From Flavihumibacter solisilvae (GTDB taxonomy: Bacteria; Bacteroidota; Bacteroidia; Chitinophagales; Chitinophagaceae), in assembly GCF_000814475.1 (NCBI RefSeq), contig NZ_JSVC01000013.1:1-64000 (forward strand): DNA of 64,000 nucleotides, in the 5' to 3' direction. The translations under genes were made by a program, and so were the position numbers. The notes under the pieces are model-generated. The model saw nothing but the letters and a program-made list of their open reading frames with translations. It was not told where the DNA came from and did no database searches. Shown one piece after another: positions 37,421 through 64,000 of the stretch (its first letter is position 1; each line of letters opens with the position of its first letter).

Positions 37421-39517
37421 ATGCGTACTTCTACATTCCGTACCAAAAGGGCTACCCTTGCTCTGGTTTCCGTATTTACTTACTTGTTTACTTCAGCGCA
37501 GGTAACAGATGCATTTGGCACCTGGGATATCTGGCCAATGCAGAAACAATTTTACCCTCGTTCAATTCAGACAAATAAAGGCACTGTTCGGGTGAAAGGT
37601 ACCCTGAACAATAGTCTTGCATTGCCGCGATTAAGATTATACCGTGAAGGAAGTCTGGTTAAAACAGAAGTACTTACGCCAAACCAGTCTTTTGATGTGA
37701 CATTTGAGATAACGGCAGAACTTGCGAATTACCAGGTGAACCTGGAAAATGATTTTAATTGGACTACGAAGCAGGTTGGCGAATTGGTAGCTGGTGACGT
37801 TTACTTTATCTCGGGTCAGTCAAATGCCGAATCCAGGAAAATGGAGTCGGGGGGCGGCTTTCCCGGTGACAACAGCAATCCTGATGTAAATACAGATGTT
37901 GGCGGTAACATAAATTTTGTGCGGGTATATGGTGGGAGCATTGATAACTATACCAAACAATGGTTTATAGGAAATGGAAATACAAATGCTTTCCAGAATG
38001 GTAATACAGGTCAGGTGGGAATGCGACTTGCACGCGAGATAATAAGAACACAAGGAGTTCCTGTATGTATTATGAATGGTGCAGAACGAGGTGAGCCGAT
38101 TGAATATTACCTGCCCGCTGCGAACCATTTTTCAACGTCCACAAACTATGGACGTGAACTTACCCGCCTCACCGAAGCAGGACTGGTTGGCAAGATCCGC
38201 GCCTTTATATGGTACCAGGGTGAATCAAACACTATCAACGGAGACCCGGCAACGAATAAAACAAGTTATATAAACAACTTCACTCAGATTTATAATGCCT
38301 GGACGCTGGATTACGGACCTGCTGAAAAATATTATATAGTCCAAATCAGGCCTGGTTGCAGCAATAATGAAAATTCTCCGGCCGCAAAAGACCGCGTTCT
38401 GGCTATCCAGGAAGCACATCGTGAAATTGTGGCTGCAGACCCTGCAAAAAGAACATTGGTAGGAACTAATGGCATCCCACAATATGGCGATGAATGCCAC
38501 TATTATTATGCAGGCTATAAACAGATCGGTAACAGGTTATTCAGTCTCATTAATAACCAGGTGTATGGTGCACCGGTTACTAATGACAACTACACCACTC
38601 CTCAACCCCGTAAAGTATCTCCGCTTTATTTTTCCGGGGGATCTTCCGGCCAGGTAACCATGTCGTTTGACAAACCGGGCGACACATATTCTGTAACCGC
38701 GGTTACCGGCGATATCAGGTCGCGGTTCAATCTCGAAGGAGGTAACTATACCATTAATTCTGTGGCGATCCAGAATACCGGGGCAACTGGTAGTCCATAT
38801 AATGTATTGCGCATCAACTATACAATGAATGCAGGAACGATCAACAATCCGACCGGGCTCACGTATCGCAATGATTATCACGATAACAATCCGGTAATTG
38901 TGAATTCAGACGGAATGCAGATGGTTAGTTTTTCGATCTCAGGCATTGCCGCTTTTGACCCGCTTCCCGCAGATCCGTTGACGCTGCGCATTACGCCGGT
39001 GAACGGCAGGAATAACCTGTACTGGCAGATCGAGAACAATAACGATTTCGAATATTTTGAAGTAGAGAGAAGCCAGAACGGCAACAAGTATTCTACGATT
39101 GCCACTGTACCTGGTTCACTGCTAGCAGGTAAAGCCCAGTATGATTATTCCGATACAAAGCCTTCCAGCGAAAAGAATTTCTACCGGATCAAGGCATTCA
39201 ATTTCAATGGAAAAATAATCTACAGTCATGAGGTTGCTGTGAACAACAGGCTTTCCTTCACTGACGGATTAAAACTATTCCCCAACCCGGCAAAAGACCA
39301 GGCTATGGCCGGACTCTCTGTAAAAGAAGCAGGATCTGCAACGATCCAGATCTTTGACCAGAACGGTCGGATGAATACCACCCGGACCATCATGCTGCAA
39401 AAAGGAAATAACCTGTTTTCAATCGGCGAAGTGCTCGACCTCAAACCCGGTATGTACGTAGTTCGGATCATCACCGGAACCGATATTTACACGGGACGGC
39501 TGGTCCGCATGAATTGA
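37421..39517 (+). CDS. Secreted sialate-O-acetylesterase-like protein with T9SS sorting domain
   Basis: 698-residue exported protein. Signal peptide at 1-26 (cleavage near SAQ). The SGNH-type sialate O-acetylesterase domain (SASA, PF03629; about 100-370) has the nucleophile Ser in FISGQSNAES and the oxyanion box in WYQGESN, with a late GDECHYYYAGY that may hold the catalytic His. Beta-rich modules follow (about 390-615). A C-terminal type IX sorting domain (618-698) has LKLFPNPAKDQ and the usual GMYVVRI ending. It is thus delivered to or past the outer membrane. It may remove O-acetyl groups from a carbohydrate. It opens the surface-polysaccharide region. Confidence 0.87.
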   Translation: MRTSTFRTKRATLALVSVFTYLFTSAQVTDAFGTWDIWPMQKQFYPRSIQTNKGTVRVKGTLNNSLALPRLRLYREGSLVKTEVLTPNQSFDVTFEITAELANYQVNLENDFNWTTKQVGELVAGDVYFISGQSNAESRKMESGGGFPGDNSNPDVNTDVGGNINFVRVYGGSIDNYTKQWFIGNGNTNAFQNGNTGQVGMRLAREIIRTQGVPVCIMNGAERGEPIEYYLPAANHFSTSTNYGRELTRLTEAGLVGKIRAFIWYQGESNTINGDPATNKTSYINNFTQIYNAWTLDYGPAEKYYIVQIRPGCSNNENSPAAKDRVLAIQEAHREIVAADPAKRTLVGTNGIPQYGDECHYYYAGYKQIGNRLFSLINNQVYGAPVTNDNYTTPQPRKVSPLYFSGGSSGQVTMSFDKPGDTYSVTAVTGDIRSRFNLEGGNYTINSVAIQNTGATGSPYNVLRINYTMNAGTINNPTGLTYRNDYHDNNPVIVNSDGMQMVSFSISGIAAFDPLPADPLTLRITPVNGRNNLYWQIENNNDFEYFEVERSQNGNKYSTIATVPGSLLAGKAQYDYSDTKPSSEKNFYRIKAFNFNGKIIYSHEVAVNNRLSFTDGLKLFPNPAKDQAMAGLSVKEAGSATIQIFDQNGRMNTTRTIMLQKGNNLFSIGEVLDLKPGMYVVRIITGTDIYTGRLVRMN

Positions 39518-39573
39518 GGAAAGATCTAAATCCTGTTTTTTAATTAGCTTGGCATTTCGCAAACCCATAAACC

Positions 39574-40314
39574 ATGATCCAGATAAAAAGAAAGTTTTTG
39601 TCAGTTCTTCCTGTGAATGAATACTGGTTTATTTATCCCGGCGGGTTTTGGCGGCTGGCCGGATTGAATGTATATAACCATTTGCGGAAGGATATTTCAA
39701 GTCCCTTGCTGGTGAAAGCGGCAAACCATACTGTTGAGCTTGACCTGGGCAGGACTGAAGAAGAAATATTCGGGTCGTTTTCCAGTACATTCAGGACCCA
39801 TATCCGTGCAGCGGAAAAAAGCGGGGTGAAATGCTATTTCGATAACGACATGGACAAGTTCGTCAAATTCTACAATGATTTTGCTGCAACAAAGGGATTG
39901 CCGGCGGAATCGGCTTCTCGCCTGAAGGGTTACGGCGATTCGTTCAGGATCTGCTATGCCGAGCTCGACGGTGAAGTGCTGGCTGCCCACAGCTTCATTG
40001 TGGATCATGATCAGAAAATTGTCAGGTTAATGCAGTCCGCGTCACGGCGATTCGACGAGAATTTCGATAAAAATAAAATCGGGAAGGCCAATAAATATCT
40101 GCATTTTTGGGATATGAAGGAATTCAGGGAGATGGGGATTCTCAGCTATGATTTTGGCGGATACATGGAAACCCATTCTGAAAAAGTGATTGACAGTCTC
40201 CTTGACTTCAAATTAAACTTCGGCGCCCAGCAGAAAACAACCGCGAATTATTATACCCTCGGGTATTACGTTTTGAGACAACTGGCCATCAGGCTCAAAA
40301 TGTTAAATAAATAA
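39574..40314 (+). CDS. FemAB/GNAT-like acyltransferase, paralog 1
   Basis: 246-residue cytoplasmic protein with the fold of the FemAB/GNAT (Acetyltransf_6-like) superfamily. The conserved middle and C-terminal parts read AAHSFIVDHDQKIVRLM, KIGKANKYLHFWDM and SYDFGGYMET. It is clearly a paralog of the protein at 51831-52574 (shared features at the same positions: DKN-x-x-GKANK-x-LHF and YDFGG). The substrate is unknown; relatives in polysaccharide clusters may acylate amino sugars. It lies outside the main co-directional block, convergent with the heparin-lyase-like gene. Confidence 0.75.
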   Translation: MIQIKRKFLSVLPVNEYWFIYPGGFWRLAGLNVYNHLRKDISSPLLVKAANHTVELDLGRTEEEIFGSFSSTFRTHIRAAEKSGVKCYFDNDMDKFVKFYNDFAATKGLPAESASRLKGYGDSFRICYAELDGEVLAAHSFIVDHDQKIVRLMQSASRRFDENFDKNKIGKANKYLHFWDMKEFREMGILSYDFGGYMETHSEKVIDSLLDFKLNFGAQQKTTANYYTLGYYVLRQLAIRLKMLNK

Positions 40315-40317
40315 GCC

Positions 40318-40375: not shown

Positions 40376-42340
40376 TTAAAGTACCTGGAACTTTTTAGTG
40401 ATCGCAGGTTTGTTCGCAAAATATACACTCAGAGTATAGTATCCAGCTGGCAGGGTGCTCAGGTTATAACTCTTCGAGAAAGTAGTACCTGTTTTGCTGA
40501 TGCTGCTGTAGTGCACTCTTGTTCCGGTTGAGGAATAGATGCTTACAGTAGCACTTCCTGTCAGTGAGTTGTTCAGCGTCATCGTCATTGTTGTATAAAC
40601 AGGTGACGGGTTAACTGTAAGTGTAGATGCTGTTGATGTAGCCGCTTTCACTGTCACAGTTGTCACATCTGAAGAAACTCCACCTTTATCGTCTGTTACA
40701 GTCAGCTTGAACTGGTATGTTCCTGCAACCAGGTTGGAAAGGATCGGAGCTTTCCATGCTGTGTTGTTGAAGGTTGCCTTGTTCGGACCTGATACCTGTG
40801 ACCATACATATTTTGCAATAGTACCGTCGGGATCAGATGAAGTGGAAACCAATTGTACCGTGTTGGTCGGAAGAGTAACTGTTTTCGCAACTCCTGCATC
40901 TACTACAGGAAGCTGGTTACCGCCAGAAGCTTTCACGACAACACTTACATTTGAAGCAGCAGTTGCTCCTTTATTATCCGTTGCTGTCAGCCTGAAGGCA
41001 TATGTTCCTGCTACCAACTTGGAAACGGTAACTGTTGCAGCTGTTGTGCTGGAGAAAGTCGCTGTGCTTGGACCGGAGGCCTGTGCCCACCTGTAGCTCG
41101 CGATTGAACCATCGGCATCAGATGCTGTACCGGCAAGACTTACCGCATTAGTCGGCAGGGTAAGTGTTTTAGCAGTACCTGCGCTAACAGTCGGAGCCTG
41201 GTTGGTAGTTGATGTTGTGGTTGACACATTCACCGTTACATCATCTGTGTCTGTATTACCGGAGTTGTCGGTTACAGTAAGGCGGTAAACATATACACCT
41301 TTAACGAGGTTGGATACCTTAGTGCCTACAGTTGTAGCAGTACCGATTGTTGATGTAGACGGACCGGAAACCTGGCTCCAGCGGTAAGTTGAAATACTGC
41401 CATCAGGATCTTTCGAAAGAGAACCGGTCAGGTTTGCTGAATTGGTCGGAAGGGTCACATTTACATCAGAACCTGCGTTCGCTACAGGAGCCTGGCCGGT
41501 TGAGCTTGTAGTTCCTACCATGCTGGCTTCAGTTGCTGTTTTGTCGGCGATCTTCACATCATCGATGTAGAAAGCCCTGAGCGTGCTGGTAGACAGTTTA
41601 CCCTGGTAGTTACCACCACTCCAGATCCACTTGTAGATACCTACCTTGAAGTAAGGGAACCAACTGCCATTGATATGACAGGGACCAGTGTAGTCCATTA
41701 CAAGTTTACCATTGTGCCATGCCTTCACACGACCGTTACTGGTGTACTGGGGATCATAATAGAATACCCAGTCGTTCCAGGTGTCATAAGCAACTGCACC
41801 CATGTCATAAACCTTGTCAACATAGTTGGGGTTGGTTGTGTAGTTGGTAAGGCTGTAACGGATGTTGATTGTCCAACGGCCATTTACTACCTGGAGAGAC
41901 AGGGGGGGACTTGTAGAAGTGTTAGGATTCTTGTCGTGCCACTGTACGATTGCCTCAGGAACCTGGTCAACTGAATAGGATGCTTTAGGCAGGAAAGCAG
42001 AAAATTTCCACCAACGTAGGTTGGCATTAATACCGCTTTGAGAACTGGAATTGTTGTGAGTTAACTCAGCCCTTTTACCACCATACTGGGCATCGGGGTC
42101 TGATTTTCTTAGTTCTACTCTCATGGAGCTAGAACCGCTTCTTTTCTGTGCAGTAGATTGCGTCATGGAGTAAGAGCAACATCCTTCTTTTACCTGGAAT
42201 CCCCCGGTTAAAAGGTTGGACGACTCAAAAGAGCTTTGCAATACTACTCCGGTTTGTGCTTTTGCGATAATACCGGAACCCATGAGTACGGCAAACGCAA
42301 TAATTCTACCTGCCAGTTTTTGTGGTGCTGGTTTTGTCAT
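40376..42340 (-). CDS. Secreted heparin-lyase-like protein with three PKD repeats and T9SS sorting domain
   Basis: 654-residue exported protein. Signal peptide 1-29 (ending AKA). The N-terminal domain (about 32-275) resembles the heparin lyase I-like polysaccharide lyase family (PF14099): SSFESSNLLTGGF, KRAELTHNN, AIVQWHDKNP, WNDWVFYYDP and IDDVKIADK. Three PKD modules follow (about 288-375, 383-470, 477-565), each with LTLPTN or VTLPTN, DPDGSI or DADGSI, YxWxQxSGP and a T-x-T-D ending. A T9SS type A sorting domain closes the protein (575-654). It probably cleaves or binds an acidic polysaccharide at the cell surface; its place beside an exopolysaccharide cluster suggests that polymer as substrate. 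Confidence 0.85.
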   Translation of the reverse strand: MTKPAPQKLAGRIIAFAVLMGSGIIAKAQTGVVLQSSFESSNLLTGGFQVKEGCCSYSMTQSTAQKRSGSSSMRVELRKSDPDAQYGGKRAELTHNNSSSQSGINANLRWWKFSAFLPKASYSVDQVPEAIVQWHDKNPNTSTSPPLSLQVVNGRWTINIRYSLTNYTTNPNYVDKVYDMGAVAYDTWNDWVFYYDPQYTSNGRVKAWHNGKLVMDYTGPCHINGSWFPYFKVGIYKWIWSGGNYQGKLSTSTLRAFYIDDVKIADKTATEASMVGTTSSTGQAPVANAGSDVNVTLPTNSANLTGSLSKDPDGSISTYRWSQVSGPSTSTIGTATTVGTKVSNLVKGVYVYRLTVTDNSGNTDTDDVTVNVSTTTSTTNQAPTVSAGTAKTLTLPTNAVSLAGTASDADGSIASYRWAQASGPSTATFSSTTAATVTVSKLVAGTYAFRLTATDNKGATAASNVSVVVKASGGNQLPVVDAGVAKTVTLPTNTVQLVSTSSDPDGTIAKYVWSQVSGPNKATFNNTAWKAPILSNLVAGTYQFKLTVTDDKGGVSSDVTTVTVKAATSTASTLTVNPSPVYTTMTMTLNNSLTGSATVSIYSSTGTRVHYSSISKTGTTFSKSYNLSTLPAGYYTLSVYFANKPAITKKFQVL

Positions 42341-42949: not shown

Positions 42950-43729
42950 ATGAGATTTTGTTTTAACTGCCGTCTGTGGAAATTACTGGTTATAGTCATG
43001 CTGTTTTCAGCTTGCGCAAGTACTGAAAAAGCCCGTTACTTTAACGGGATGAATGAAAACAATTATGTGCTCAACGTAAAAAACCTCACGCCAGTGCTGC
43101 AAAAGGGCGATATTCTCAGTATCACCGTAAGGAGCCTTAACCCCGAGGCCAGTGCGGTTTTTAATGCCCTTCCCACTAATGCCATTAATATGACCCCGGC
43201 GTATGCCGAGCTTTCAGGGTACCTGATTCAGCCGGATGGTTCGATCGATTTTCCCGTGCTTGGCCGGCTCAGGGCTGCCGGGCTGGAAAAAAACACGCTT
43301 TCCAACTATATCCGTGACGAATTGCTCGCAAAACAATTATTGGTTGACCCCATCGTTACTATCCGCATCCTGAATTTTAGGGTCACCGTCCTGGGGGAAG
43401 TGGGTAAACCGGGGGTAATGAACATCACGAATGAAAAGGTGAACGTACTGGAAGCACTGGGTCTTGCCGGTGATATGACATTGTTTGCAAAAAGAGACAA
43501 TGTAGTACTGGTGAGGGAAGAAGATAACAAGGTCATCACCAAGAGAATGAACATAAATTCAGATGAGATTTTCAAGTCTCCCTATTATTATCTGAAGACA
43601 AACGATATTCTTTACGTGGAATCAAATAAAGCCAAGGTACAAAGCACCAGCAGGGCTACACAGCTTTTGCCGACGATCCTGAGTGCATTGGCATTTATAG
43701 CAGTGATATTTGACCGTTATGGGCGATAA
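42950..43729 (+). CDS. Polysaccharide export lipoprotein, Wza-like
   Basis: 259-residue lipoprotein (LFSAC lipobox, Cys22). It carries the Poly_export domain (PF02563; about 45-140, with GDILSITVRSLNPEASAVF in part), then an SLBB-type domain (TVLGEVGKPGVMNITNEKVNVLEALGLAGD in part), and a final hydrophobic segment (LLPTILSALAFIAVIF) that is typical of Bacteroidota members. It should form the outer-membrane exit channel for the polymer. It is the first gene of the block, 29 bp ahead of the Wzc-like gene. Confidence 0.92.
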   Translation: MRFCFNCRLWKLLVIVMLFSACASTEKARYFNGMNENNYVLNVKNLTPVLQKGDILSITVRSLNPEASAVFNALPTNAINMTPAYAELSGYLIQPDGSIDFPVLGRLRAAGLEKNTLSNYIRDELLAKQLLVDPIVTIRILNFRVTVLGEVGKPGVMNITNEKVNVLEALGLAGDMTLFAKRDNVVLVREEDNKVITKRMNINSDEIFKSPYYYLKTNDILYVESNKAKVQSTSRATQLLPTILSALAFIAVIFDRYGR

Positions 43730-43758
43730 TTTAAGAACAACAAAATATCCTTAACACT

Positions 43759-46068
43759 ATGTTTTCAGGAAGTGGTAATAAAAAGATACATGAGGAGGAG
43801 AACATTCTTAAAAACTTATGGTTTAAGTATTTTCCGTACTTGCCGTTGTTCATCCTTTCAGCAGTAATTTTCCTCTCGCTTGCTTTCATCTATTCCAAAT
43901 GGATCCAGCGCAGTTACGAGATCAATGCCTCTATCCTGATCAAGGATGAGAAGAAAGGTATTGATGAATCCCAGATGCTGGAAGCACTGGATATTTTCCG
44001 GGGTAAGAAAATCGTGGAGAACGAGATCGAAGTACTCCGGTCCCGGAAATTCATCAAACAGGTGGTGAACAGTCTTGGACTTTATGTCCAGGTGAAACGC
44101 AAGGAAAAGTACCGTACAGTTGACCTCTATTCGGAGGCCCCGGTAAAAGTGCTGTTCCGGGATCCTGCCCAGATGAAACCGGCTGAGAAGATTCATTTCG
44201 CTTTTGATGAAAAAGCAGGATCGGTGCGGTTTGGTGATTCATCCTATGCATTGAACTCCTGGGTTCGTACAAAATGGGGTGAAGCTATTTTCTTCCGGAA
44301 TAACAGCAATGGTTACCTGCCGTCAAACGGTGAAATATACTATGTACTGGTTAGTCCTAAAATGATAGAGCAGGAGTTGCTGTCGCGACTCGAAGTAATT
44401 ACCGGTAACAAACTGGCGAGCCTTGTTGAACTGCGTATAAAAGATACTGATCCGAAAAGGGGAGAGGATATCCTGAATGAACTCATGCATTTTTATACGC
44501 AGGCAGAGGTTGATGATAAGAACAGGCTTGCTGGTAATATGCTGTCTTCGGTGGAAGCGAGGTTACGGTACACAGCCGGCCAGCTTGACTCCGTGGAATC
44601 TGCCATTCAGAACTATCGTACTTCAGCCGGTGTGATCGATATCAGTGAGCAAAGCCGGTTATACCTGGAGAACGTGGGTCAGAACGAGCGGATGGTGCAG
44701 GAGCTGAATACCAAGCTGGCGGTATTGGATGCCGTTGAAAGATATATCCAGGCCAGCACGGACCAGACTGCCGGAACTTCCGCTTTAATGGTGGATGATC
44801 CGACTCTTTCCCAGATGCTGACACAGTTGAACGATGCGCAGCAGCAATACGCAAAACTGAGGATCACTACAGGAGAGAACAGTCCCATAATAATGAATGT
44901 GAAGGAACAGATCAATAAACTGAAACCTTCCATCCTCGGAATTGTCAAAAGCCAGCGTACCAACCTGGAGATCGGGAGGCAGAACCTGATGAGCAGTGGT
45001 ACCCGGTATTCTTCCATGCTACGGACTATTCCGGGCAAAGAGAAGCAGTTGCTCGAGATAAGCAGGCAGCAGTCCATCAAGAATCAGATCTATTCTTACC
45101 TGCTTGAAAGAAGGGAAGAAGCAGCATTGTCCTACGCGGCAGCCAAAGCCGATTCCCGGATCATCGATGTGGCAGAATCTTCTATTTATCCAGTCAGTCC
45201 CAAAATGCGATACATCTATTTGGGTGCATTGCTCTTTTCCGCCTTTGCGGTGATCCTGCTGGTAAGCCTCCGGGAGGGTATGAACAAGAAGATTCTTTTC
45301 CGCAAGGAAATTGAACAGTTATCTGACATTCCGGTAGGAACAGAATTATTTCACAGCGGCAGGAAGAAATTCCTGGTTTACAATGACAAGGAAAAATCCG
45401 CTGTAATTGAACAGATCCGGTCGTTGAGGAATGCGATCGCATTTGGGGAGAAAAATGTTAATCACAAGGTTTTCTATATTTCATCATATACCAGGAAGGA
45501 AGGTAAATCATACGTCGCGGCAAACCTGGCCTGCAGCCTTGCTGCAACGGGTAAACGCACGTTGCTGATCGACATGGACGTGGATACTCTGGGGAACAGC
45601 AAGGCGTTCGGGCTGGACGTTGAAAAAGGATTTACAAACTACCTGAAGGAAGAAGGCGTGAGACTGGATGAGATCGTGCACAAACTGCCCGATGCATACG
45701 GCCTGCGTTTCATTCCTGCCGGCACCATGACGGAAGGTGGGATAGAACTTACCAGCCAGCACCAGCTTGAAAACCTGCTCAGGACTGCCCGTGAACAGTT
45801 TGATTACGTAGTGGTATGTTCTGCCCCGGTTTCCAGCAATGCAAACATGGAACTGATCGGCCAGATGTGCGATATGCGCCTGCTGATCGTAAGGCATGGT
45901 GTTACACCGAAATATGGAAATACGTTGCTTGAAGCAGCCGCCCAATCCGGTAATACCCTGAATTCACTCATAATTTTCAATGGAGTTCGGAGTAGGGGAG
46001 TGGCTGGCCGCACATACGGCTATGGTGGCCACTATGGTTTCGGGTACGATTTGAAAGTCGCCCGGTAA
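43759..46068 (+). CDS. Wzc-like chain-length determinant / BY-kinase
   Basis: 769-residue inner-membrane polysaccharide co-polymerase. First helix about 28-49, large periplasmic coiled-coil domain, second helix about 482-503, and a cytoplasmic BY-kinase-like ATPase (555-745). The Walker A is RKEGKS (Gly582-Lys583-Ser584) and the Walker A' is LLIDMDVD (Asp605, Asp607). The Walker B position reads YVVVCSAP, with Cys687 where the family has Asp. The C-terminal tail is tyrosine-rich (TYGYGGHYGFGYD), as expected for autophosphorylation. It controls polymer length and export with the Wza-like protein. Whether the kinase is fully active is uncertain because of the Walker B change. Confidence 0.9.
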   Translation: MFSGSGNKKIHEEENILKNLWFKYFPYLPLFILSAVIFLSLAFIYSKWIQRSYEINASILIKDEKKGIDESQMLEALDIFRGKKIVENEIEVLRSRKFIKQVVNSLGLYVQVKRKEKYRTVDLYSEAPVKVLFRDPAQMKPAEKIHFAFDEKAGSVRFGDSSYALNSWVRTKWGEAIFFRNNSNGYLPSNGEIYYVLVSPKMIEQELLSRLEVITGNKLASLVELRIKDTDPKRGEDILNELMHFYTQAEVDDKNRLAGNMLSSVEARLRYTAGQLDSVESAIQNYRTSAGVIDISEQSRLYLENVGQNERMVQELNTKLAVLDAVERYIQASTDQTAGTSALMVDDPTLSQMLTQLNDAQQQYAKLRITTGENSPIIMNVKEQINKLKPSILGIVKSQRTNLEIGRQNLMSSGTRYSSMLRTIPGKEKQLLEISRQQSIKNQIYSYLLERREEAALSYAAAKADSRIIDVAESSIYPVSPKMRYIYLGALLFSAFAVILLVSLREGMNKKILFRKEIEQLSDIPVGTELFHSGRKKFLVYNDKEKSAVIEQIRSLRNAIAFGEKNVNHKVFYISSYTRKEGKSYVAANLACSLAATGKRTLLIDMDVDTLGNSKAFGLDVEKGFTNYLKEEGVRLDEIVHKLPDAYGLRFIPAGTMTEGGIELTSQHQLENLLRTAREQFDYVVVCSAPVSSNANMELIGQMCDMRLLIVRHGVTPKYGNTLLEAAAQSGNTLNSLIIFNGVRSRGVAGRTYGYGGHYGFGYDLKVAR

Positions 46069-46167
46069 GAGCTGATTGGAAGTAAAAAAGTAAAAGTCAA
46101 AAGAAGGAAAGTACTCTGCACTTATGTGACTGAGGAAGCGAAGCATTTAATTTTAGTGAATGTAATT

Positions 46168-46719: not shown

Positions 46720-46780
46720 ATTCAATACACCAAAAAACGAGTATTCAATAATAAAATAATCCAAAGACTATAGACCTGTT

Positions 46781-53510: not shown

Positions 53511-53515
53511 CCGAG

Positions 53516-54940: not shown

Positions 54941-54949
54941 TCCCGGGAT

Positions 54950-55870: not shown

Positions 55871-55884
55871 TTAATAGAAACACA

Positions 55885-57033
55885 ATGAGAATTTTAATCC
55901 TGATCCCTAACATCCCGGAGCAACTGGACGAAGTTAAAGGGGGAATTTATTCAGCTTCGATCAACCTGTTGGAAGGTTTGTCAAAAACTTCCCACACAGT
56001 TCGGTTGGTTACTTTTAAGAAAGGCCTAAAAAAGGCAGTTTATAAGAAGTATTCTGAACGGATCGATATTCATTACATACCCGAAGGTTTTTTCCCCTGG
56101 CATGCACTTAACTTCCTGTTTATTTGTCCCTGGGCTGTTAGGCGAGAAGTCAGGGAATTCAAACCTGACATCGTTCATTACCAGTTAGGTGGTACATTCC
56201 TGATGACATCGATCCTTGGGTTGGGGGGAGCCAAATCTGTGCTTACTGCACATGGACTCGCTCTTGCCGAGATGGTAACGACCAGGAACCTCCGCAAGAA
56301 GATCACCTTCTTTTATAACGGTGTGCTGGAAAGGATTTTCTGCCCGGACTATATTATCCATTTATCAAATTTCTCGGTTGAGCTTTTCAACAAATATCCT
56401 GGCGGAAAACAGAATTACACTCTAATTCCAAATGCTATCCCCGAGGGATTTTTCAATGTTCCTCAAAAACGCGAAACCAATAATCGCATATTAGTCATCG
56501 GGAATATCGATGCCAATAAGAACCAGACATTCGTTATCGACTCCATTGCAGAAATAGCCAAAACAGGAAAGGAATTCACCGTGGATATAATAGGGGGATT
56601 TAAAGACGAAAACTACAAGCGTGAGGTCATGGCCAAACTGGAAGAGTCAGGCGTGGCTCACCTGGTTAATTTTAAAGGCTGGCTGTCACAAAGCGAGCTA
56701 TTGCAGGAATGGGAGGAAGCGGATATCTTACTGCTTGCATCCCGCCATGAATCCCTGCCAATGGTGATCGCGGAAGCCATGGCTGCCGGGAAGGTGGTGG
56801 TTGCTTCAGCAGTTGGCGGCGTTCCGGAAATGTTTACCGATCGTGAAACAGGGTTCCTTTACCCCGCCGATGATGTGGAGAGACTTTGTAATGTGCTGCA
56901 AGAATTACACGACAATAGTAACCTGCTTCACGATGTGGCGCAAAAAGCTAAACTTGAAGCATATGAAAGCTACCATATTGATTCGGTAAGTAAAAAGACA
57001 TTAGCTTATTATTCCAAGATTTTGAATAACTGA
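55885..57033 (+). CDS. GT4-family glycosyltransferase C
   Basis: 382-residue GT-B glycosyltransferase. N-terminal domain with IPNIPEQLDEVKGGIYSASI (Gly-rich acceptor loop), and C-terminal domain with RILVIGNIDANKNQTFVIDSI (in part) and the E-x7-E signature in ASRHESLPMVIAEAMAAG. It is the third GT4 enzyme of the block, following the acylation pair. Donor sugar is unknown. Confidence 0.92.
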   Translation: MRILILIPNIPEQLDEVKGGIYSASINLLEGLSKTSHTVRLVTFKKGLKKAVYKKYSERIDIHYIPEGFFPWHALNFLFICPWAVRREVREFKPDIVHYQLGGTFLMTSILGLGGAKSVLTAHGLALAEMVTTRNLRKKITFFYNGVLERIFCPDYIIHLSNFSVELFNKYPGGKQNYTLIPNAIPEGFFNVPQKRETNNRILVIGNIDANKNQTFVIDSIAEIAKTGKEFTVDIIGGFKDENYKREVMAKLEESGVAHLVNFKGWLSQSELLQEWEEADILLLASRHESLPMVIAEAMAAGKVVVASAVGGVPEMFTDRETGFLYPADDVERLCNVLQELHDNSNLLHDVAQKAKLEAYESYHIDSVSKKTLAYYSKILNN

Positions 57034-57037
57034 CTGC

Positions 57038-58066
57038 ATGAGAATATGGTTTGACCTGTCCAATTCGCCACATATAAATATGTTCCATGATCTTATCAGG
57101 GAACTTGAGTCGGAAGGACACGAGGTGATCATCACCTGCCGCCCGCTGGCAAATACCGTTGACCTGCTGGTGCAACATAAACTGGAGCACACGATTGTGG
57201 GAGAGCATTACGGCAAGAATATCTTCCGGAAAATTTTCGGCTATCCCATAAGAATCTGGCAGCTGGTCAGTTTCCTGAGAAACAAGAACATTGATGTGGC
57301 TGTTTCCCAAAGCTCATTTCACTCGCCGATGGTAGCGCGTATTCTGCGCAAGCCGTCTATTTATACGAATGATAATGAACATGCACTTGGAAACATTCCC
57401 TGTTTTATTTTAGCCAGCAAAATCCTGATTCCTGAAAATCTGCCCATGGAAAAGGTGGTGAAGAAAGGCGGGAGAATTTCACGGATCTTACATTACCCGG
57501 GTGTGAAGGAGGGAATATACCTGTGGAAGAAAGGATTGCAGATCCAGGACGACCGGAAACAGCATCCGCCTGATAAAAAAAGCATTTATGTAAGGCCGGA
57601 ACCGCTGACTGCACAATACTATAATGCTGGTGTCAACTTTCTTGACAATGTGCTGGAGAGCCTGAAATCAAGTTATAATATCACCATTCTACCCAGGGAT
57701 AAAACCCAGCTGGCTCATTACAGGCAGGAAAAATTTGCTGGGATAAATGTGCCTGAAAAGCCCCTTAAGTTTGATGAAATTGCCCGGCAGTGTGCATTAT
57801 TCATCGGCGCAGGAGGTTCCATGACGCGTGAACTAGCGATCCTGGGAATACCAACGATTTCTGTTTACCAGGCAGAACTGCTTGAGGTCGATAAATTCCT
57901 GCTCGAGCGCAAACTCATGTTGCATGAACCCAGGCTTGCGTCTTCACAACTATCGGATATCATGCATGAACTCGAGGGTAAGGAACCCGATTTACAACTA
58001 TTGGAAAAAGGCAGGCAATCCTATCAACTCTTCAAAGAAGAAATTTATAAATTCAAGAAACAATGA
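57038..58066 (+). CDS. DUF354 protein, UDP-GlcNAc 2-epimerase-like fold
   Basis: 342-residue GT-B/epimerase-fold protein of the DUF354 family (PF04007). It opens with MRIWFDLSNSPHINMFHDLI, and has IYTNDNEHALGN and a C-terminal GAGGSMTRELAILGIPTIS (in part), features shared with WecB-like enzymes. DUF354 genes are common in archaeal and bacterial surface-glycan clusters; their reaction is unproven. The following oxidoreductase gene overlaps by 4 nt (ATGA), so these two are coupled and may work on the same sugar. Confidence 0.85.
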   Translation: MRIWFDLSNSPHINMFHDLIRELESEGHEVIITCRPLANTVDLLVQHKLEHTIVGEHYGKNIFRKIFGYPIRIWQLVSFLRNKNIDVAVSQSSFHSPMVARILRKPSIYTNDNEHALGNIPCFILASKILIPENLPMEKVVKKGGRISRILHYPGVKEGIYLWKKGLQIQDDRKQHPPDKKSIYVRPEPLTAQYYNAGVNFLDNVLESLKSSYNITILPRDKTQLAHYRQEKFAGINVPEKPLKFDEIARQCALFIGAGGSMTRELAILGIPTISVYQAELLEVDKFLLERKLMLHEPRLASSQLSDIMHELEGKEPDLQLLEKGRQSYQLFKEEIYKFKKQ

Positions 58067-59076
58067 TCAAAGTCGGACTGATCGGAGCAGGCAAAATGGG
58101 TATCTCACACCTGGCTATCCTCGGGGCTCACCCTGATGTGGAGATTAGCGGTGTATGTGATACGTCGAAAATGGTGCTCGATGTATTGGAGAAATACAGT
58201 TCTTTCAAATGTTATACTGATTACCGCAAAATGATCAGTGAAAGGCGACCAGATGCGGTTGTGGTGGCTGTTCCCACGAAAATGCACGCGGCCATGGTTA
58301 GGGAATTACTCGAACAGGGCATTCATGTATTCGTAGAAAAGCCGTTCTGCCTGCATCCATCGGAGGCCGAGCCACTGATTACTCTTGCGAAACAGAAAAA
58401 CCTGGTTAACCAGGTTGGATACCATAACAAGTGGGTAGGTACTTTCGCCGAAGTAAAACGGCTGCTGAGCAGGAATGCGATCGGGGAGATCTATCATTTT
58501 CACGGGCAGGCGTATGGGCCGGTAGTGGTCAAGCAAAAGCAGGACACCTGGCGTTCGAGCCCGGATGAAGGCGGTGGTTGCCTGATGGATTATGCGTCGC
58601 ATGTAATAGACCTCATCAACTACCTGATTTCACCCGTACAAAGTGTGCCTTCCAGTATGTTGAAAAGTGTATTCTCGAGGAGTGTGGAAGATGCTGTTTT
58701 TGCCATGCTGAAGCTAAGCAATGGTGTATCGGGAGTTCTATCTGTCAACTGGTCTGATGAAACCTATCGCAAAATGACCACTTCGGTTCAAATCAATGGC
58801 CGGAAGGGAAAAATTGTTTCGGATGCCAACGAATTGAAAGTCTTTTTCAATGATGGGGAATGCCCGCAGGGATACTCCAAAGGGTGGAACGTAAAATATG
58901 TTACAGACCTAACTCCGCAGGTAGATTTTTACCTCCGTGGTGAAGAATATACTGCGCAAATGGATCATTTCATCAGCGCAGTGAAAGGTGATGCCGGCAC
59001 AGGAATCAATACTTTTGAGTCTGCCTCCCACACCGACAGGGCAATTGATCTTATTAGAAAAGCACAATTCAGTTAA
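58063..59076 (+). CDS. Gfo/Idh/MocA-family oxidoreductase
   Basis: 337-residue NAD(P)-dependent oxidoreductase. Rossmann motif GLIGAGKMGISH at the N-terminus, the EKP motif in VFVEKPFCLHPSEA, and the substrate-domain GGGCLMDYASHVIDL with the conserved His. Such enzymes oxidise nucleotide-linked sugars, for example UDP-GlcNAc or UDP-ManNAc derivatives (WlbA/WbpB type). It overlaps the DUF354 gene and precedes the unknown TIM-barrel-like gene by 1 bp, and WecB is close by, so it likely belongs to one amino-sugar pathway. Confidence 0.92.
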   Translation: MIKVGLIGAGKMGISHLAILGAHPDVEISGVCDTSKMVLDVLEKYSSFKCYTDYRKMISERRPDAVVVAVPTKMHAAMVRELLEQGIHVFVEKPFCLHPSEAEPLITLAKQKNLVNQVGYHNKWVGTFAEVKRLLSRNAIGEIYHFHGQAYGPVVVKQKQDTWRSSPDEGGGCLMDYASHVIDLINYLISPVQSVPSSMLKSVFSRSVEDAVFAMLKLSNGVSGVLSVNWSDETYRKMTTSVQINGRKGKIVSDANELKVFFNDGECPQGYSKGWNVKYVTDLTPQVDFYLRGEEYTAQMDHFISAVKGDAGTGINTFESASHTDRAIDLIRKAQFS

Positions 59077-59077
59077 G

Positions 59078-59959
59078 ATGGATAGAATTTTATTTGGAGA
59101 TAACCAGTTTTTTGCTGTCAACCATATTTCAGATGAGAAGTCAATGGCGCAGTCTATCAGGTTCAAATCGGACCAGGCCATAATTCATACGCTTGACCAG
59201 GCCATGGAGTTTGGCATCAATACATTCATGTGTACCACGCATGACCGTATCGCCAACATCTGCGAAATAATCCGGGAGAACCCGTCAAAATACAGTGATT
59301 TTAAGATCTATCCCTGTATGCCCTATGCGCACAAATATGCGAATGCCGTAACCGATCTTGGCGTTGCCGGGGCTCTTAAGCAATATGTGCCGGGTAATTT
59401 CTTTGGTTCTTTGTTCAAAGGTGGTGTCGCATATCTTTCTAAAGATTATGAATCGATCATGGAATTACTGATCGATGCTGAAATGAAAATGTTCAAGGGC
59501 CTGAATACGCCGGTGATATTCCTGCAGAACGTGATCACCGACCTGTTACTAGGACTCGGAATGAAAGATATTTTCGTTGCCTTTCACCAGTATGTCAGCA
59601 AAAAATACAACGCTGAAGCGGGGTTCATTACCATGAATATGCCGGCTTTGCTTGATATGCTCGAATCTGCCGGCATCAGGAACCCGATAATTTGTGCATC
59701 CATCAATAAGGCAGGTTTCAGAATGTCGGGTGGAAAGGAACTGTATGAGCAAACGTTGAATACGCGTACATTCAGAGCAATAGCCATGCAGGTGCTGGCC
59801 GGAGGCGCAGTATCTCCCAAGGAAGCAATTCAATATGTGTGCAGCCTCCCGAATATTCAGTCCATTTTATTTGGCGCTTCCTCAAGAGGCAATATTAAAG
59901 ACACTGCCTCCTTTATCCGTTCTTATGATGAAATGTATCAAAAAGTAGACAAAATCTGA
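59078..59959 (+). CDS. Unassigned protein, probable TIM barrel related to aldo/keto reductases
   Basis: 293-residue cytoplasmic protein. The start FGDNQFFAVNHIS, a region FGINTFMCTTHDRI and the C-terminal SILFGASSRGNIKDT resemble the beta-strand ends of aldo/keto reductase barrels, with the last part matching the usual iGasspxxI cofactor-phosphate segment. The catalytic Tyr/Lys/His tetrad is not evident, so it may not be a reductase. The frame extends upstream into the oxidoreductase gene, but the ATG at 59078 is 1 bp after that gene's stop and fits. Position between an oxidoreductase and WecB suggests a step in nucleotide-sugar metabolism. The family has no function I know. Confidence 0.7.
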   Translation: MDRILFGDNQFFAVNHISDEKSMAQSIRFKSDQAIIHTLDQAMEFGINTFMCTTHDRIANICEIIRENPSKYSDFKIYPCMPYAHKYANAVTDLGVAGALKQYVPGNFFGSLFKGGVAYLSKDYESIMELLIDAEMKMFKGLNTPVIFLQNVITDLLLGLGMKDIFVAFHQYVSKKYNAEAGFITMNMPALLDMLESAGIRNPIICASINKAGFRMSGGKELYEQTLNTRTFRAIAMQVLAGGAVSPKEAIQYVCSLPNIQSILFGASSRGNIKDTASFIRSYDEMYQKVDKI

Positions 59960-59963
59960 GCCA

Positions 59964-61061
59964 ATGAAAATTACACTAGTAGCCGGCGCGCGGCCAAACT
60001 TTATGAAAATATCGCCCATCATCAGGGCTATCAACAATGAAGTCAGCAATGGAACTTCAATCGAGTACAGGCTGGTACACACCGGTCAGCACTACGACAA
60101 GAACATGAGTGCTGCCTTTTTTGAACAACTGGGAATACCTGAACCACATGTAAACCTCGAAGCTGGTGGCGGCAGCCAGGCAGAACAGACAGCGGCGATT
60201 ATGGTAAAGTTTGAGCAGGAGCTGCTGAAGAACCGCCCGGACCTGATCCTTGTCGTTGGTGATGTCACTTCAACTATGGCATGTACCATAACAGCTAAAA
60301 AGCTTTGTGTAGACGCGGTGCATGTGGAAGCAGGCATAAGGTCAGGTGATATTACAATGCCCGAAGAGGTAAATCGTATTGTTACAGATGCCATTACCGA
60401 TCATTATTTCACCACATCGGAACATGCCAATACGCATCTTCGCAACAGCGGAGTTGAAGAAAAGCGAATCCACTTCGTGGGAAATACGATGATCGATTCC
60501 CTGTGCCAGCATATTGATAAACTGGTAGAGCCGGAGATCTGGTCACAGCACCAATTATCGTCTGGTAAATACCTGCTGCTCACATTGCACAGGCCTGCCA
60601 ATGTGGATGATTCTGCAAACCTCGAAAAGCTGGTGAGCACCATCATCCGGCATTCCCATGATTATAAGATCGTTTTCCCGGTACACCCCCGGACAAGGAA
60701 AGTACTGGAAAGCCTCTCGATAAACAGTGACCGGCTCATCTGTTCCGAACCGTTGCCCTATCTCGAATTCATTTACCTGGTAAAAAATGCCGGCGGTATC
60801 ATTACCGACTCTGGCGGCATAACCGAAGAAGCAACTGTATTGGGTATACCATGTATGACTATGCGCAACAGCACAGAGCGGCCTGAAACAGTAATATTGG
60901 GAACGAATGAACTGATTGGTACCGATCCGCAGAACATTGTGCCTCACCTGGATAATCTAATTGCAGGCAAATGGAAAAAAGGTGGCGTTCCCCCGCTTTG
61001 GGATGGAAAAGCCGCTGAACGCATTGTCGGAAAATTGGTCAGCATCTATAACCGGAATTAA
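59964..61061 (+). CDS. wecB: UDP-N-acetylglucosamine 2-epimerase (non-hydrolysing)
   Basis: 365-residue GT-B-fold enzyme that interconverts UDP-GlcNAc and UDP-ManNAc. Motifs: VAGARPNFMKISPI, HTGQHYDKNMS, VVGDVTSTMA, VHVEAGIRSGDITMPEEVNR (in part), TLHRPANVD, FPVHPRTRK and TDSGGITEEATVLGIPC. The active-site His and Glu residues are intact and length is normal. Without a UDP-ManNAc dehydrogenase gene nearby, the product is probably used as ManNAc, or modified by the neighbouring Gfo/Idh/MocA enzyme. It is 4 bp after the TIM-barrel-like gene. Confidence 0.95.
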   Translation: MKITLVAGARPNFMKISPIIRAINNEVSNGTSIEYRLVHTGQHYDKNMSAAFFEQLGIPEPHVNLEAGGGSQAEQTAAIMVKFEQELLKNRPDLILVVGDVTSTMACTITAKKLCVDAVHVEAGIRSGDITMPEEVNRIVTDAITDHYFTTSEHANTHLRNSGVEEKRIHFVGNTMIDSLCQHIDKLVEPEIWSQHQLSSGKYLLLTLHRPANVDDSANLEKLVSTIIRHSHDYKIVFPVHPRTRKVLESLSINSDRLICSEPLPYLEFIYLVKNAGGIITDSGGITEEATVLGIPCMTMRNSTERPETVILGTNELIGTDPQNIVPHLDNLIAGKWKKGGVPPLWDGKAAERIVGKLVSIYNRN

Positions 61062-61075
61062 CTTCACATAAGGGG

Positions 61076-62461
61076 ATGAATAAGCTTTCGTATATTTTCT
61101 ACAGGACATTACTTTGGTTCTGGGATCTTGTTTCGCTCAACATTGTCATTTTCCTGGTCAGTAATTTTATACTTCCGCCAGGCGAGGTAGGAACGGGACA
61201 ATACCACGTCCTGTTCGCAGTTATCAACCTGTCATGGATGATCTCTGTGCACCTGACAACGTTGTATATGAGCAAGAACTGGCTTGATTTTACTATGTTT
61301 TACAAACGTACGATCAAGTGTTTCCTGTTTACCCTGCTGCTTTTGTTGCTGTTTGTATTCCTGTACAAGTATGATTATTCGCGGAAGTTCACCATGATGA
61401 CCATGCTGGGCTTTGGAATTTTCCTGACAATGAATCGTGTCGCATTCAATTTGCTGATCATTTCGTTCAGGGATAAATTCAGTTTCCAGAAGAATGTGGT
61501 TATCGTCGGCTATAACAATACGTCCAAACGACTGATCAGATATTTCACAGACGAAGCCAAATTCGTGAATGTTGCCGGATGCTTTGAAGATGGCGAACGC
61601 ATTTCACAGCTTTCAAATTTTCCGATTCTTGGCGAACTGAAAGATTGCATGTCATTCGTCACAGAAAATAATATCACAGAGATCTATTCAACCCTTTCAC
61701 CTGAGCAGTATCCTTATATCTACGATATTGCCAAGGCGGCTGAAAAGCAATTTGTTCATTTCAAATTTGTACCGGACTATAATATATTTATCAACCGCAA
61801 CATCTACATCGATTTCGTTGATAATTTACCTGTCCTGTCGCTTCGTAATGAACCACTTGAAGACACGGGTAACCGGATCAAGAAAAGGATGCTGGATATC
61901 TTTTTCAGCCTTTTTGTAATCATCTTCATCCTGTCTTGGCTTGTACCCATACTTTCTATCCTGATCAAACTGGATTCAAAAGGACCGATATTTTTCACCC
62001 AGCTAAGGTCCGGTAAAAACGGGCTTCCATTTCGCTGTCTGAAGTTCCGGAGTCTGCGGGTTAATGATGATGCGAATGTGAAGCAGGTTGTCAAGAACGA
62101 CCAGCGCATTACGCGCCTTGGCAGAATTATGCGCAAGACCAATATCGACGAGTTACCGCAGTTTTTCAATGTGCTTCTAGGCGATATGTCGATAGTTGGT
62201 CCAAGGCCTCATATGCTTAAGCATACCGAAGATTTTTCCCACCTGTACAAGCAATACATGATCCGTCACTTTGCAAAGCCCGGTCTCACAGGATGGGCCC
62301 AGATCAACGGATTCAGGGGGGAGATCACTGAAAATATACTCCTCCAGCGCAGGATCGAACACGACATCTGGTACATGGAAAACTGGACCCTGTGGCTCGA
62401 TTTCCAGATCATCTTCCGCACTGTCTTTCTCTCCATCATCGGCGATAAAAACGCCTATTAA
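61076..62461 (+). CDS. Polyprenyl-phosphate sugar-1-phosphate transferase, WcaJ/WbaP-like
   Basis: 461-residue initiating transferase that places the first sugar-1-phosphate on undecaprenyl phosphate. Four N-terminal helices (about 8-130), a CoA-binding-like Rossmann part (VVIVGYNNTSKRLI), a fifth helix (about 275-298) and the Bac_transf catalytic domain (PF02397) with FRCLKFRSLRVN, RKTNIDELPQFFNVLLGDMS (in part), VGPRPHM and KPGLTGWAQINGFRGE. It is the last gene of the block. It is convergent with the PKD gene, whose stop codon lies 1 bp away. Confidence 0.94.
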   Translation: MNKLSYIFYRTLLWFWDLVSLNIVIFLVSNFILPPGEVGTGQYHVLFAVINLSWMISVHLTTLYMSKNWLDFTMFYKRTIKCFLFTLLLLLLFVFLYKYDYSRKFTMMTMLGFGIFLTMNRVAFNLLIISFRDKFSFQKNVVIVGYNNTSKRLIRYFTDEAKFVNVAGCFEDGERISQLSNFPILGELKDCMSFVTENNITEIYSTLSPEQYPYIYDIAKAAEKQFVHFKFVPDYNIFINRNIYIDFVDNLPVLSLRNEPLEDTGNRIKKRMLDIFFSLFVIIFILSWLVPILSILIKLDSKGPIFFTQLRSGKNGLPFRCLKFRSLRVNDDANVKQVVKNDQRITRLGRIMRKTNIDELPQFFNVLLGDMSIVGPRPHMLKHTEDFSHLYKQYMIRHFAKPGLTGWAQINGFRGEITENILLQRRIEHDIWYMENWTLWLDFQIIFRTVFLSIIGDKNAY

Positions 62462-62462
62462 A

Positions 62463-64000
62463 TCAAGTCTTTACTATTTTCCTGATCACTGGCTGTGATT
62501 GCCTGTTGTTGATTTTGAGGTAATATGTGCCTGCAGGGTATTTGCTCATATCTACCCGTTTGTCATATACCTGTGTCCCCGGTGAGATTTTATCCGAAAA
62601 GATCAATTGGTCACCGGAACTATAAATGCTGATACCTTCAGGTTGCTGGCCTTTATCTATAACCCTGATGCGTATGTGATCATGTGCCGGGTTGGGAAAT
62701 ACAGAAACTGCAGTTTCATCTACCGGTGCAATCGTGACTGTTTGCGCAGCCATTAATTCACCTGAGCCACCAACCTGTGCCATACTTGTGGTGGCGGTTG
62801 TGGTATTTACCACATTCACCGTCATGGTTGTTGTTGCCCTTGCGCCCAGGTTATCAGTAACCGCCAGTTCAAAAATATAGCTGCCAATTAGCAGGTCACG
62901 CACAATGGCCTTGCTGCTGGTTGCGCCGGTCATGGTGGCTGTGGCTGGCCCGGACTTTTGCGTCCACCTGTAAGTGCTGATCGAGCCGTCACTGTCATAT
63001 GAGCCGGTTCCATTGAGAGTTGCATTATCAACCGGCCAGTAGAGAGTCTGATTCCAGCTGGCATCGGCAACAGGCGCCTGGTTTCCGGTTGCAGGAGGCG
63101 GAGTAGGGGCAGCTAAAATAATTATGTTGACGCTGGCTGTTGCAGTAGCGCCTGCATTATCGGTTACTGTGAGCCTGAATGTATAGGTGCCCTGTATAAG
63201 ATTGCTGATCACATTTGCGGATGCGGTCGGACTAGCCATGGGCGCGACAGACGGTCCGGATAGTTGTTGCCACTGGTATTTGACAATTGAACCATCTGCA
63301 TCAGTTGACTGGGTGCCTCTAAGTGTGGCTGCATTCATTGGCAGCGTCAATGTCTGGTTCCAGCCCGCATCTGCAACCGGGGCAATGTTGGGCGCTGAAG
63401 CACCTGGCAGTACCAATACATTGATGAATTTGCTGTTCATCCCACCTTTGTTGTCTTTCACTGTGAGCTTAAAGAAATAATTTCCCTGGTTCAGGTTACT
63501 GAGCTGGATATTGGCTGCAGTTGGTGAAGTCATTGTGGCTGTGGTCGGACCGCTGTATTGTGTCCAGGAATAGGATGCTACCAGTCCATCTTTATCTGTT
63601 GAACGGTCACCATACAGGATCGTAGTGGAATTTGGTAACTGGACATATTTTTTAACTCCAGGGTTCGCCACCGGCGGAGTGTTCTGGGCAGTTCCTCTTA
63701 TTTCAACTTCCATAACGGCAGCTGCCTTTGCGCCATCGGCATCGGTAATAGTCAACTGGTACTGGTATAGTCCGGCGACCATATTTGAAGCAATTATCCT
63801 GGAAGTGTTATTTGCCGAAAGAGTAGCCACAGACGGGCCGGATACCTGTTCCCATAAATAACTGATTGCAGTACCATCAGGGTCATGCGAACCCACACCA
63901 CTCAGCGTTGAATTGTTGGTTGGCAGCGTAAGTGTTTGCTTTGGTCCTACAACAACAAGCGGCAATACATTGGATGAGTTTGCCGGCGTAATCAGGAAAT
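62463..64000 (-). CDS. PKD-repeat protein with T9SS sorting domain, 5' end outside window
   Basis: At least 512 residues; the frame runs open to the window edge (residues FLITPANSSNVL precede 63965), so the N-terminus lies outside. Visible parts are four PKD modules (about 95 residues each) with LPTN or LPMN, DxDG, YxWxQxSGP and TVTD-type endings, then a linker and a T9SS type A sorting domain (SVFPNPAHDHIRI and AGTYYLKI). The modules resemble those of the heparin-lyase-like protein at 40376, on the other side of the block. Its catalytic or binding domain, if any, is not visible. It probably sits on the cell surface. Confidence 0.88.
   Translation of the reverse strand, partial: FLITPANSSNVLPLVVVGPKQTLTLPTNNSTLSGVGSHDPDGTAISYLWEQVSGPSVATLSANNTSRIIASNMVAGLYQYQLTITDADGAKAAAVMEVEIRGTAQNTPPVANPGVKKYVQLPNSTTILYGDRSTDKDGLVASYSWTQYSGPTTATMTSPTAANIQLSNLNQGNYFFKLTVKDNKGGMNSKFINVLVLPGASAPNIAPVADAGWNQTLTLPMNAATLRGTQSTDADGSIVKYQWQQLSGPSVAPMASPTASANVISNLIQGTYTFRLTVTDNAGATATASVNIIILAAPTPPPATGNQAPVADASWNQTLYWPVDNATLNGTGSYDSDGSISTYRWTQKSGPATATMTGATSSKAIVRDLLIGSYIFELAVTDNLGARATTTMTVNVVNTTTATTSMAQVGGSGELMAAQTVTIAPVDETAVSVFPNPAHDHIRIRVIDKGQQPEGISIYSSGDQLIFSDKISPGTQVYDKRVDMSKYPAGTYYLKINNRQSQPVIRKIVKT

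Follow-up and report, generated by a model that had tools for sequence, protein, structure and literature searches.

Does a gene block that builds an exopolysaccharide (EPS) also bring along the enzymes that modify and cut that same polymer? The question is raised by Flavihumibacter solisilvae (assembly GCF_000814475.1; 5.41 Mb in 75 contigs), in which the first 64 kb of the 245-kb contig NZ_JSVC01000013.1 (hereafter, the window) hold 17 genes that all run in one direction with intergenic gaps of -14 to 61 bp (42950-62461), flanked by a secreted esterase and a lyase (lyase A) on one side and by a second lyase (lyase B) on the other. An initial annotation had read this region as a system that builds, acylates, de-acylates and cleaves one surface polysaccharide. 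Judging from gene content and from related genomes, we consider it likely that one polymer is built, acylated and cut here, with indirect support from the constancy of the locus in its genus and from one natural cluster switch. The de-acylation of the same polymer by the flanking esterase is doubtful, as the head of this enzyme appears to have been exchanged where the polymer genes stayed.

The proteins of the window were scanned with Pfam and NCBIfam, using the curated cut-offs of each family (Table 1). A complete Wzx/Wzy-dependent EPS or capsule gene set (WcaJ, Wzx, Wzy_C, Wzc, and Wza) is present in one cluster, and the block is, by its gene families, a Wzx/Wzy-dependent EPS/capsule locus for which polymer production and export are predicted: WcaJ would begin a lipid-linked repeat unit, the glycosyltransferases would extend it, and Wzx, Wzy, Wzc, and Wza would flip, polymerise and export the product. 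Within the block an AlgI-like MBOAT protein stands beside an SGNH protein. His322 of the former (motif WHGANW) is invariant in 13/13 homologues, as are the serine and Asp-x-x-His residues of the latter, i.e., the combination of an MBOAT catalytic histidine and an SGNH active site expected of AlgI/AlgJ-X type O-acylation pairs. The only Pfam match of the SGNH protein is to GDSL (20.3 bits, under the cut-off of 32.9), and its assignment rests on the invariant residues; its role is presumably AlgJ/AlgX/DltD-like. The pair would O-acylate the polymer in or at the periplasm. Family matches and active-site residues thus confirm the co-directional block and its acylation pair as they had been described.

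All three flanking proteins end in a Por_Secre_tail, in agreement with the proposed export by the type IX secretion system (T9SS). With signal peptides (judged by eye), this C-terminal sorting domain and the T9SS component SprA in the genome (SprA_N, 534.6 bits; the only T9SS part searched for), they are, by their sequence features, T9SS cargo. The protein labelled heparin-lyase-like indeed belongs to a lyase family, PF14099, and what had been noted as another PKD protein is in fact the C-terminal part of a second lyase of this family, which strengthens the case. Lyase B has 782 amino acids, its gene starts at contig position 64811, and its head (116.3 bits) lies, like that of lyase A, well over the PF14099 cut-off of 29.9. 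The two heads are 42% identical; lyase A carries the motifs KRAEL, QWH, and KVGIYKW, of which QWH is kept in both. We dropped the heparin label, since the nearest solved relative by sequence profile is glucuronan lyase A (PL20; 2zzj, E 4.2e-23), with heparin lyase I (PL13) second (E 7e-9). Both proteins are thus assigned to the PF14099 polysaccharide lyases (PL20/PL13-like), with predicted activity on a uronic-acid polymer. Given that the whole genome holds three PF14099 genes and that two of them flank the block, this proximity is not a matter of chance. In the explanation that we favour, the polymer would contain 4-linked uronic acid, the supply of which is plausible because a member of the UDP-glucose/GDP-mannose dehydrogenase family is present in 15/15 genomes of the genus. 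The exported PL20-like lyase, with its PKD repeats as anchor or spacer, would cut the finished polymer at the cell surface, and such cutting would serve to trim, release or disperse it.

The same arrangement recurs throughout the genus. The esterase, Wzc, and PF14099 served as queries against 15 genomes, 11 of which (this one included) gave a complete locus; among the remainder, contig breaks interrupt the locus in G154 and G156, G157 has a completeness of 75%, and in G108 a different cluster is present. The esterase, a lyase, Wza, Wzc, MBOAT, SGNH, FemAB, the glycosyltransferase GT4c, and WcaJ lie at one site in 11/11 complete loci (WecB in 10/11), so the gene of a putative depolymerase is fixed within the EPS locus in every one of them. 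Gene order is constant except in G152, where WcaJ lies further inside, and a tandem lyase pair occurs in G152 and G153. The site is a fixed one, adjoined by groEL in 10/11 loci (in G008 the contig ends before it) and followed on the other side by an HU-like gene (Pfam assignment for this genome only) and a serine-dehydratase-like gene that we take to be sdaA. The transporter (Wzx), the polymerase (Wzy), and several glycosyltransferases vary among species. Two loci, those of G151 and G158, have two MBOAT-SGNH pairs each (L163-L164 and L173-L174).

The genome with the different cluster offers a natural experiment. At the groEL-sdaA site of G108, of which 40 kb were read and nine cluster genes run through Pfam, lies another Wzx/Wzy cluster with GT2, RmlD, and DegT genes. 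It retains Wza, Wzc (34% identical), WcaJ, and the pair formed by the GFO/IDH/MocA dehydrogenase and its TIM-barrel-like partner; no MBOAT, SGNH, FemAB, WecB or esterase was found within the 40 kb, and matches to the esterase query span the tail region only. A PF14099 match is absent from the whole genome. The lyase slot is occupied by a protein that agrees with the lyases in orientation, PKD part and T9SS part but carries a DUF4832 head (L221:14529-17852; 63.9 bits), with DUF4874 at 19.9 bits, under its cut-off of 30.1. In this one clear case, the lyase head appears to have been swapped together with the polymer cluster in a single event, which is the pattern predicted for a cutter matched to its polymer, and the head would be a swappable module, changed whenever one polymer type gives way to another. 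The absence of the esterase alongside that of the MBOAT-SGNH pair ties the presence of the esterase to the acylation pair. This swap also makes the matching of polymer and enzyme directly testable.

Beyond the genus, we compared 57 loci chosen by the motif of the lyase A subfamily, a few of which have short flanks and several of which come from one genus. The lyase has a WcaJ relative no more than 10 kb away in 17/40 Bacteroidota loci (7/14 genera or unnamed lineages) vs 0/17 others, and any of Wza, Wzc, Wzx, or WcaJ is near it in 20/40 vs 1/17, the 20 including one locus of this genus and one weak Wzc match (53 bits). The chance rate, from 378 Bac_transf genes in 117 genomes of the family, is about 1.5%. 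In Pontibacter (L088:11023-18845) the lyase is accompanied by a WcaJ relative, a polysaccharide deacetylase and two proteins with GNAT domains; by this gene content the locus is another type of EPS cluster with a lyase. Within the genus, the four sister species that have one and the same cluster (G147, G148, G008, and G155) show 89-96% identity between their lyase heads; the heads are 65% identical in G151 and G158, which have a cluster in common, and 55% identical in G000 and G150, which have Wzx and Wzy types in common. Lyase heads correlate with Wzc in a partial Mantel test (r = 0.43, p = 0.007; pairs with G151 and G149, where sdaA was not picked up, were dropped from the controlled tests).

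Several observations weigh against this picture. The co-absence of esterase and MBOAT and the replacement of the lyase head come from G108, one genome only. With sdaA distance controlled for, the corresponding partial Mantel test of the lyase head against the gene content of the cluster gave a null result (r = -0.16, p = 0.84), and the lyase of G152 is only 35-36% identical to those of G151 and G158, yet its Wzx/Wzy types are the same as theirs. The Pfam and NCBIfam scans identified no uronic acid maker among the enzymes of the block. Lyase B, together with a neighbouring 588-aa protein, lies between WcaJ and the HU-like gene in this genome only among the 11; its nearest relatives in G151, G152, and G158 are some 130-140 kb off the locus and two of the three lack the motif histidine. 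In the locus lyases of G008, G147, G148, G149, G154, and G155, NTK or DTK replaces the QxH of the presumed active site, and those of G153 are without the arginine of the RAEL motif, and because of these losses the lyases of the sister species concerned may be altered or inactive. In less selected samples the association is weak: PF14099 is found in 18/247 genomes of the class, 2/20 PF14099 genes (one locus; 17 other class genomes) have a Bac_transf gene at most 10 kb away, and the same is true of 3/16 lyase A relatives (two loci; nine family genomes outside the genus). It follows that the EPS link belongs to the subfamily and not to the whole of PF14099. As for the motif changes, an asparagine-synthase-type gene (L175:16347-18242 and homologues) is present in exactly the five readable loci with an NTK or DTK lyase (all but G154), in species mostly of one clade. 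As a lead only, its product could amidate the uronic acid and so alter what the lyase must bind.

These counts bear on the strongest alternative, i.e., that the substrates of the lyases and the esterase are acylated uronic-acid glycans of foreign (plant, algal or fungal) origin and that these enzymes stand beside the EPS block by inheritance only. Most of the sampled PF14099 genes of the class are, as it would have it, not beside a Bac_transf gene; a third lyase and further esterase paralogues are encoded elsewhere in the genome; the esterase head is hypervariable and the native polymer genes are not; and the solved relatives of both enzymes, which act on environmental glycans, bear the names of fungal, bacterial, and animal glycans. 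However, a foraging locus of this kind sits poorly with its occurrence at the same place inside the EPS locus in 11/11 genomes and with the replacement of the lyase head along with the polymer cluster in G108. Moreover, no SusC/SusD-type match, the mark of a polysaccharide utilisation locus, was found among the 30 proteins scanned in 24976-63965. We regard foraging as improbable, although it deserves to be kept in mind, and hold it reasonably probable that the polymer from this block is a substrate of the lyase.

The case of the esterase is different. The protein first described as O-acetylesterase-like is a SASA-family esterase with a T9SS tail, in which Ser134, Glu268, and His360 are invariant in 25/25 aligned proteins. 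Its AlphaFold2 (AF2) model (pLDDT 82.7) best matches the XAC1771 acetylesterase (7kmm, E 1.6e-21), with SIAE also near; the modelled SGNH-like fold and the kept catalytic residues are those of a CE20/SASA enzyme. Between G147 and G148, median identity over 27 comparable genes (at least 170 aa, 80% covered, within the fetched stretch) is 98%, and the esterase is only 54% identical, the lowest of the others being 93%. In the pairs G147/G008 and G148/G008 the esterases are 54% and 50% identical vs medians of 95%, with the next lowest genes at 79-80%. For the genes of polymer synthesis and acylation, identities are 93-100% between the closest two species and 79-99% in the pair that follows. The divergence is confined to the head: identities of signal, head, and tail are 91/38/97% (G147-G148), 93/40/97% (G147-G008), and 91/35/96% (G148-G008), and DNA identity drops and recovers sharply at the head borders. 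As fourfold sites between G147 and G148 differ far more in the head (29/74 identical) than in the tail (61/86) or the signal (17/18), the head has, it is suggested, been replaced, apparently by recombination, and not slowly changed; the contrast between head and tail is smaller in the G008 pairs (27/73 vs 37/80 and 26/63 vs 40/79). Accelerated amino-acid change was thought unlikely, given that the fourfold sites of the head also mostly differ, and gene conversion from the compared esterase paralogues was rejected, as none of the 24 paralogue domains exceeds 42.4% identity to a locus head. Swapped-head esterases were seen at 37421-39517 and in the loci L167, L169, L176, L165, and L182.

With its head swapped among sister species that have the same polymer, the esterase does not simply follow the polymer, and this variation where the polymer genes are constant is a further point against a single matched system. 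The esterase head is nevertheless not fully independent of the locus, since over all 11 loci it remains partially correlated with Wzc (r = 0.51, p = 0.007). That the esterase, which would be exported in the same way as the lyases, acts mainly on the polymer of this block seems to us rather doubtful. Since its head was exchanged without exchange of the polymer genes, it probably acts on varying acyl-glycans, or presents a surface under diversifying selection, and is not solely a matched de-acylase. A hypervariable head in an otherwise constant locus was unexpected, and would mean either rapid change of the glycan substrate or a surface enzyme under recognition pressure.

The latter possibility leads to a second alternative, in which the heads of the esterase, and perhaps of the PKD lyases, are exchanged under recognition by phages, predators or neighbours, any role on the polymer being secondary. 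In its favour is an exchanged head set between an unchanging signal and tail, together with the replacement suggested by the fourfold sites of G147 and G148. It is also consistent with the heads of G148 and G154 being of one type (70% identical), in contradiction to the lyase tree, which groups G148 and G154 with G147 and G155 (support 97/90 and 89/88), and with the esterase paralogues elsewhere in the same genomes not being variable (89-97% identical among G147, G148, G008, and G156, in two sets, a contig-end fragment of G156 excluded). The catalytic serine, glutamate, and histidine kept in all aligned proteins speak instead for an enzyme, the smaller contrast in the G008 pairs speaks less clearly for replacement, and the esterase had no match in the one phage collection searched; we consider this alternative unlikely. 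A broader proposal is that of a modular surface-identity system, in which the export frame (signal, PKD or FN3-like spacer, T9SS tail) would stay constant at one chromosomal position and homologous recombination would exchange the heads, that of the lyase tracking the polymer and that of the esterase changing even faster than the polymer under diversifying selection by phages, predators or competitors. This remains speculative and we would not bet on it; if true, the enzyme and not the sugar would carry the strain-specific surface difference. Finally, that the glycan is an A-LPS-like anchor for the attachment of T9SS cargo and not a substrate of the flanking enzymes is very improbable, for although the T9SS cargo of Porphyromonas and Tannerella offers a precedent, being linked to a surface glycolipid by a Wbp/Vim-pathway sugar (PMC7468200, as far as the accessible text of that source goes), and the block has GFO/IDH and WecB family enzymes, the Wza and Wzc export genes would point to a free or capsular polymer and not to lipopolysaccharide, and the enzymes with T9SS tails are particular to this locus and differ in G108 along with the polymer cluster.

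The explanation that we prefer, an EPS locus beside groEL with its own acylation pair and its own surface lyase, is on the whole moderately probable. Its genes are collected in Table 1.

Table 1 Genes of the EPS block and its flanks in the window
Feature	Coordinates	Strand	Evidence
Secreted CE20/SIAE-like carbohydrate acetylesterase, T9SS tail	37421..39517	+	PF03629 (SASA) 48.2 bits; Por_Secre_tail 35.5 bits
FemAB/GNAT-like transferase 1	39574..40314	+	PF02388 27.7 bits
Lyase A: PF14099 (PL20-like) head, PKD repeats, T9SS tail	40376..42340	-	113.4 bits
Wza-like outer-membrane export protein	42950..43729	+	PF02563 56.9 bits
Wzc-like co-polymerase with kinase-type ATPase domain	43759..46068	+	Wzz, GNVR, AAA_31
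UpxY/NusG-like antiterminator candidate	46126..46719	+	NF033644 36.2 bits, below cut-off 100
Wzy-type polymerase	46781..48094	+	PF04932 (Wzy_C) 66.3 bits
Wzx-type flippase	48081..49550	+	PF01943 46.9 bits
GT4 glycosyltransferase	49571..50743	+	PF13692
GT4 glycosyltransferase	50758..51807	+	PF00534
FemAB/GNAT-like transferase 2, locus core	51831..52574	+	PF02388 25.5 bits; family in 11/11 loci
GINT1_N-like putative sugar transferase	52611..53510	+	PF24793 119.7 bits
AlgI-like MBOAT O-acyltransferase	53516..54940	+	PF03062 103.9 bits
SGNH partner of MBOAT	54950..55870	+	Ser61/62 and Asp282/His285 invariant
GT4 glycosyltransferase (GT4c), locus core	55885..57033	+	PF00534; family in 11/11 loci
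DUF354 putative glycosyltransferase	57038..58066	+	PF04007 186.9 bits
GFO/IDH/MocA sugar dehydrogenase	58063..59076	+	PF01408 96.2 bits
TIM-barrel-like partner of dehydrogenase	59078..59959	+	Matches no Pfam family
WecB-like non-hydrolysing UDP-GlcNAc 2-epimerase	59964..61061	+	TIGR00236 308.7 bits, cut-off 210.15
WcaJ-like initiating sugar phosphotransferase	61076..62461	+	TIGR03023 428.9 bits, cut-off 410.75
Lyase B, C-terminal part (PKD repeats, T9SS tail)	62463..63998	-	Head beyond window end

Some of the remaining genes deserve mention in their own right. The two FemAB/GNAT-like proteins that had been seen to span the region hold up as a pair of paralogues (40% identical), and the copy between esterase and lyase is present in 1/11 complete loci, that of this genome. 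Genes similar to the UpxY/NusG-like candidate (46126-46719) occur, among the 11 loci of the genus, in G150 and G153 only. The gene after the GFO/IDH/MocA dehydrogenase most likely starts at 59078 and not at 58988, judged against its homologues, and its product is TIM-barrel-like (AF2 pLDDT 69; weak aldo-keto-reductase-like match). The two genes adjoin in all loci of the genus that hold the TIM-barrel-like gene (8/11) and also in G108, L049, and L071, the TIM-barrel-like proteins being 70-84% identical; the pair (58063-59959; L071:10774-11646; L049:17049-17990) neighbours PF14099 lyases in Salegentibacter and Pontibacter. The TIM-barrel-like protein is possibly a new nucleotide-sugar step. The 588-aa protein beside lyase B (L027:5312-7078, i.e., contig position 65312-67078) has no Pfam match and a 52% identical relative in the stretch from G150.

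That EPS loci may carry their own lyase or hydrolase is already known from RbmB, AlgL, WceF, and WelR. The Vibrio polysaccharide VPS is of the Wzx/Wzy type, and alginate is synthase-dependent and acetylated through AlgI, AlgJ, and AlgX. To our knowledge, RbmB belongs to another lyase family and has neither T9SS tail nor PKD repeats, and WceF and WelR are not exported by the T9SS. RbmB is encoded in the vps/rbm biofilm cluster of Vibrio cholerae and cuts its own, partly O-acetylated polymer (PMC11637428), a polysaccharide lyase within a biofilm-polymer gene cluster like the lyases described here; an esterase partner or head exchange is not mentioned in the accessible part of that paper. In Pseudomonas, the lyase AlgL is likewise encoded in the synthesis operon, that of alginate (PMC8829089, accessible text). 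MBOAT plus SGNH-type acylation stands alongside a lyase there as well, but AlgL clears periplasmic polymer whereas the Flavihumibacter lyases bear surface-export tails. WceF of Pantoea and WelR of Sphingomonas are EPS-modifying enzymes of EPS producers (PMC7949094 and PMC7899989) that differ, as far as the accessible parts of these sources tell, in fold or family and in secretion, WceF having a tailspike-like fold. SIR_1591 of the Streptococcus intermedius pel operon combines a TIM barrel with DUF4832 and is a tested hydrolase that disperses aggregates of its own species (PMC12345266, accessible text). Its relation to the lyase-slot protein of G108 lies in DUF4832 alone, and it belongs to a Gram-positive Pel system. 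For the esterase, XAC1771, the CE20 acetylesterases, and mammalian SIAE have the fold of the model and the SASA family in common with the Flavihumibacter protein, at 11-18% identity in the top structural alignments to the model. No description of the present arrangement was found in the open literature searched, which is not proof of absence; within the reach of these searches, three elements are new, namely the frame of PKD and T9SS parts, the swapping of heads at one fixed position, and an esterase head that is hypervariable. EPS clusters with their own depolymerase are thus known in Proteobacteria and Gram-positives, and the locus described here would be their counterpart in Bacteroidota, its enzymes being exported to the surface, exchangeable in their heads and encoded at one fixed position.

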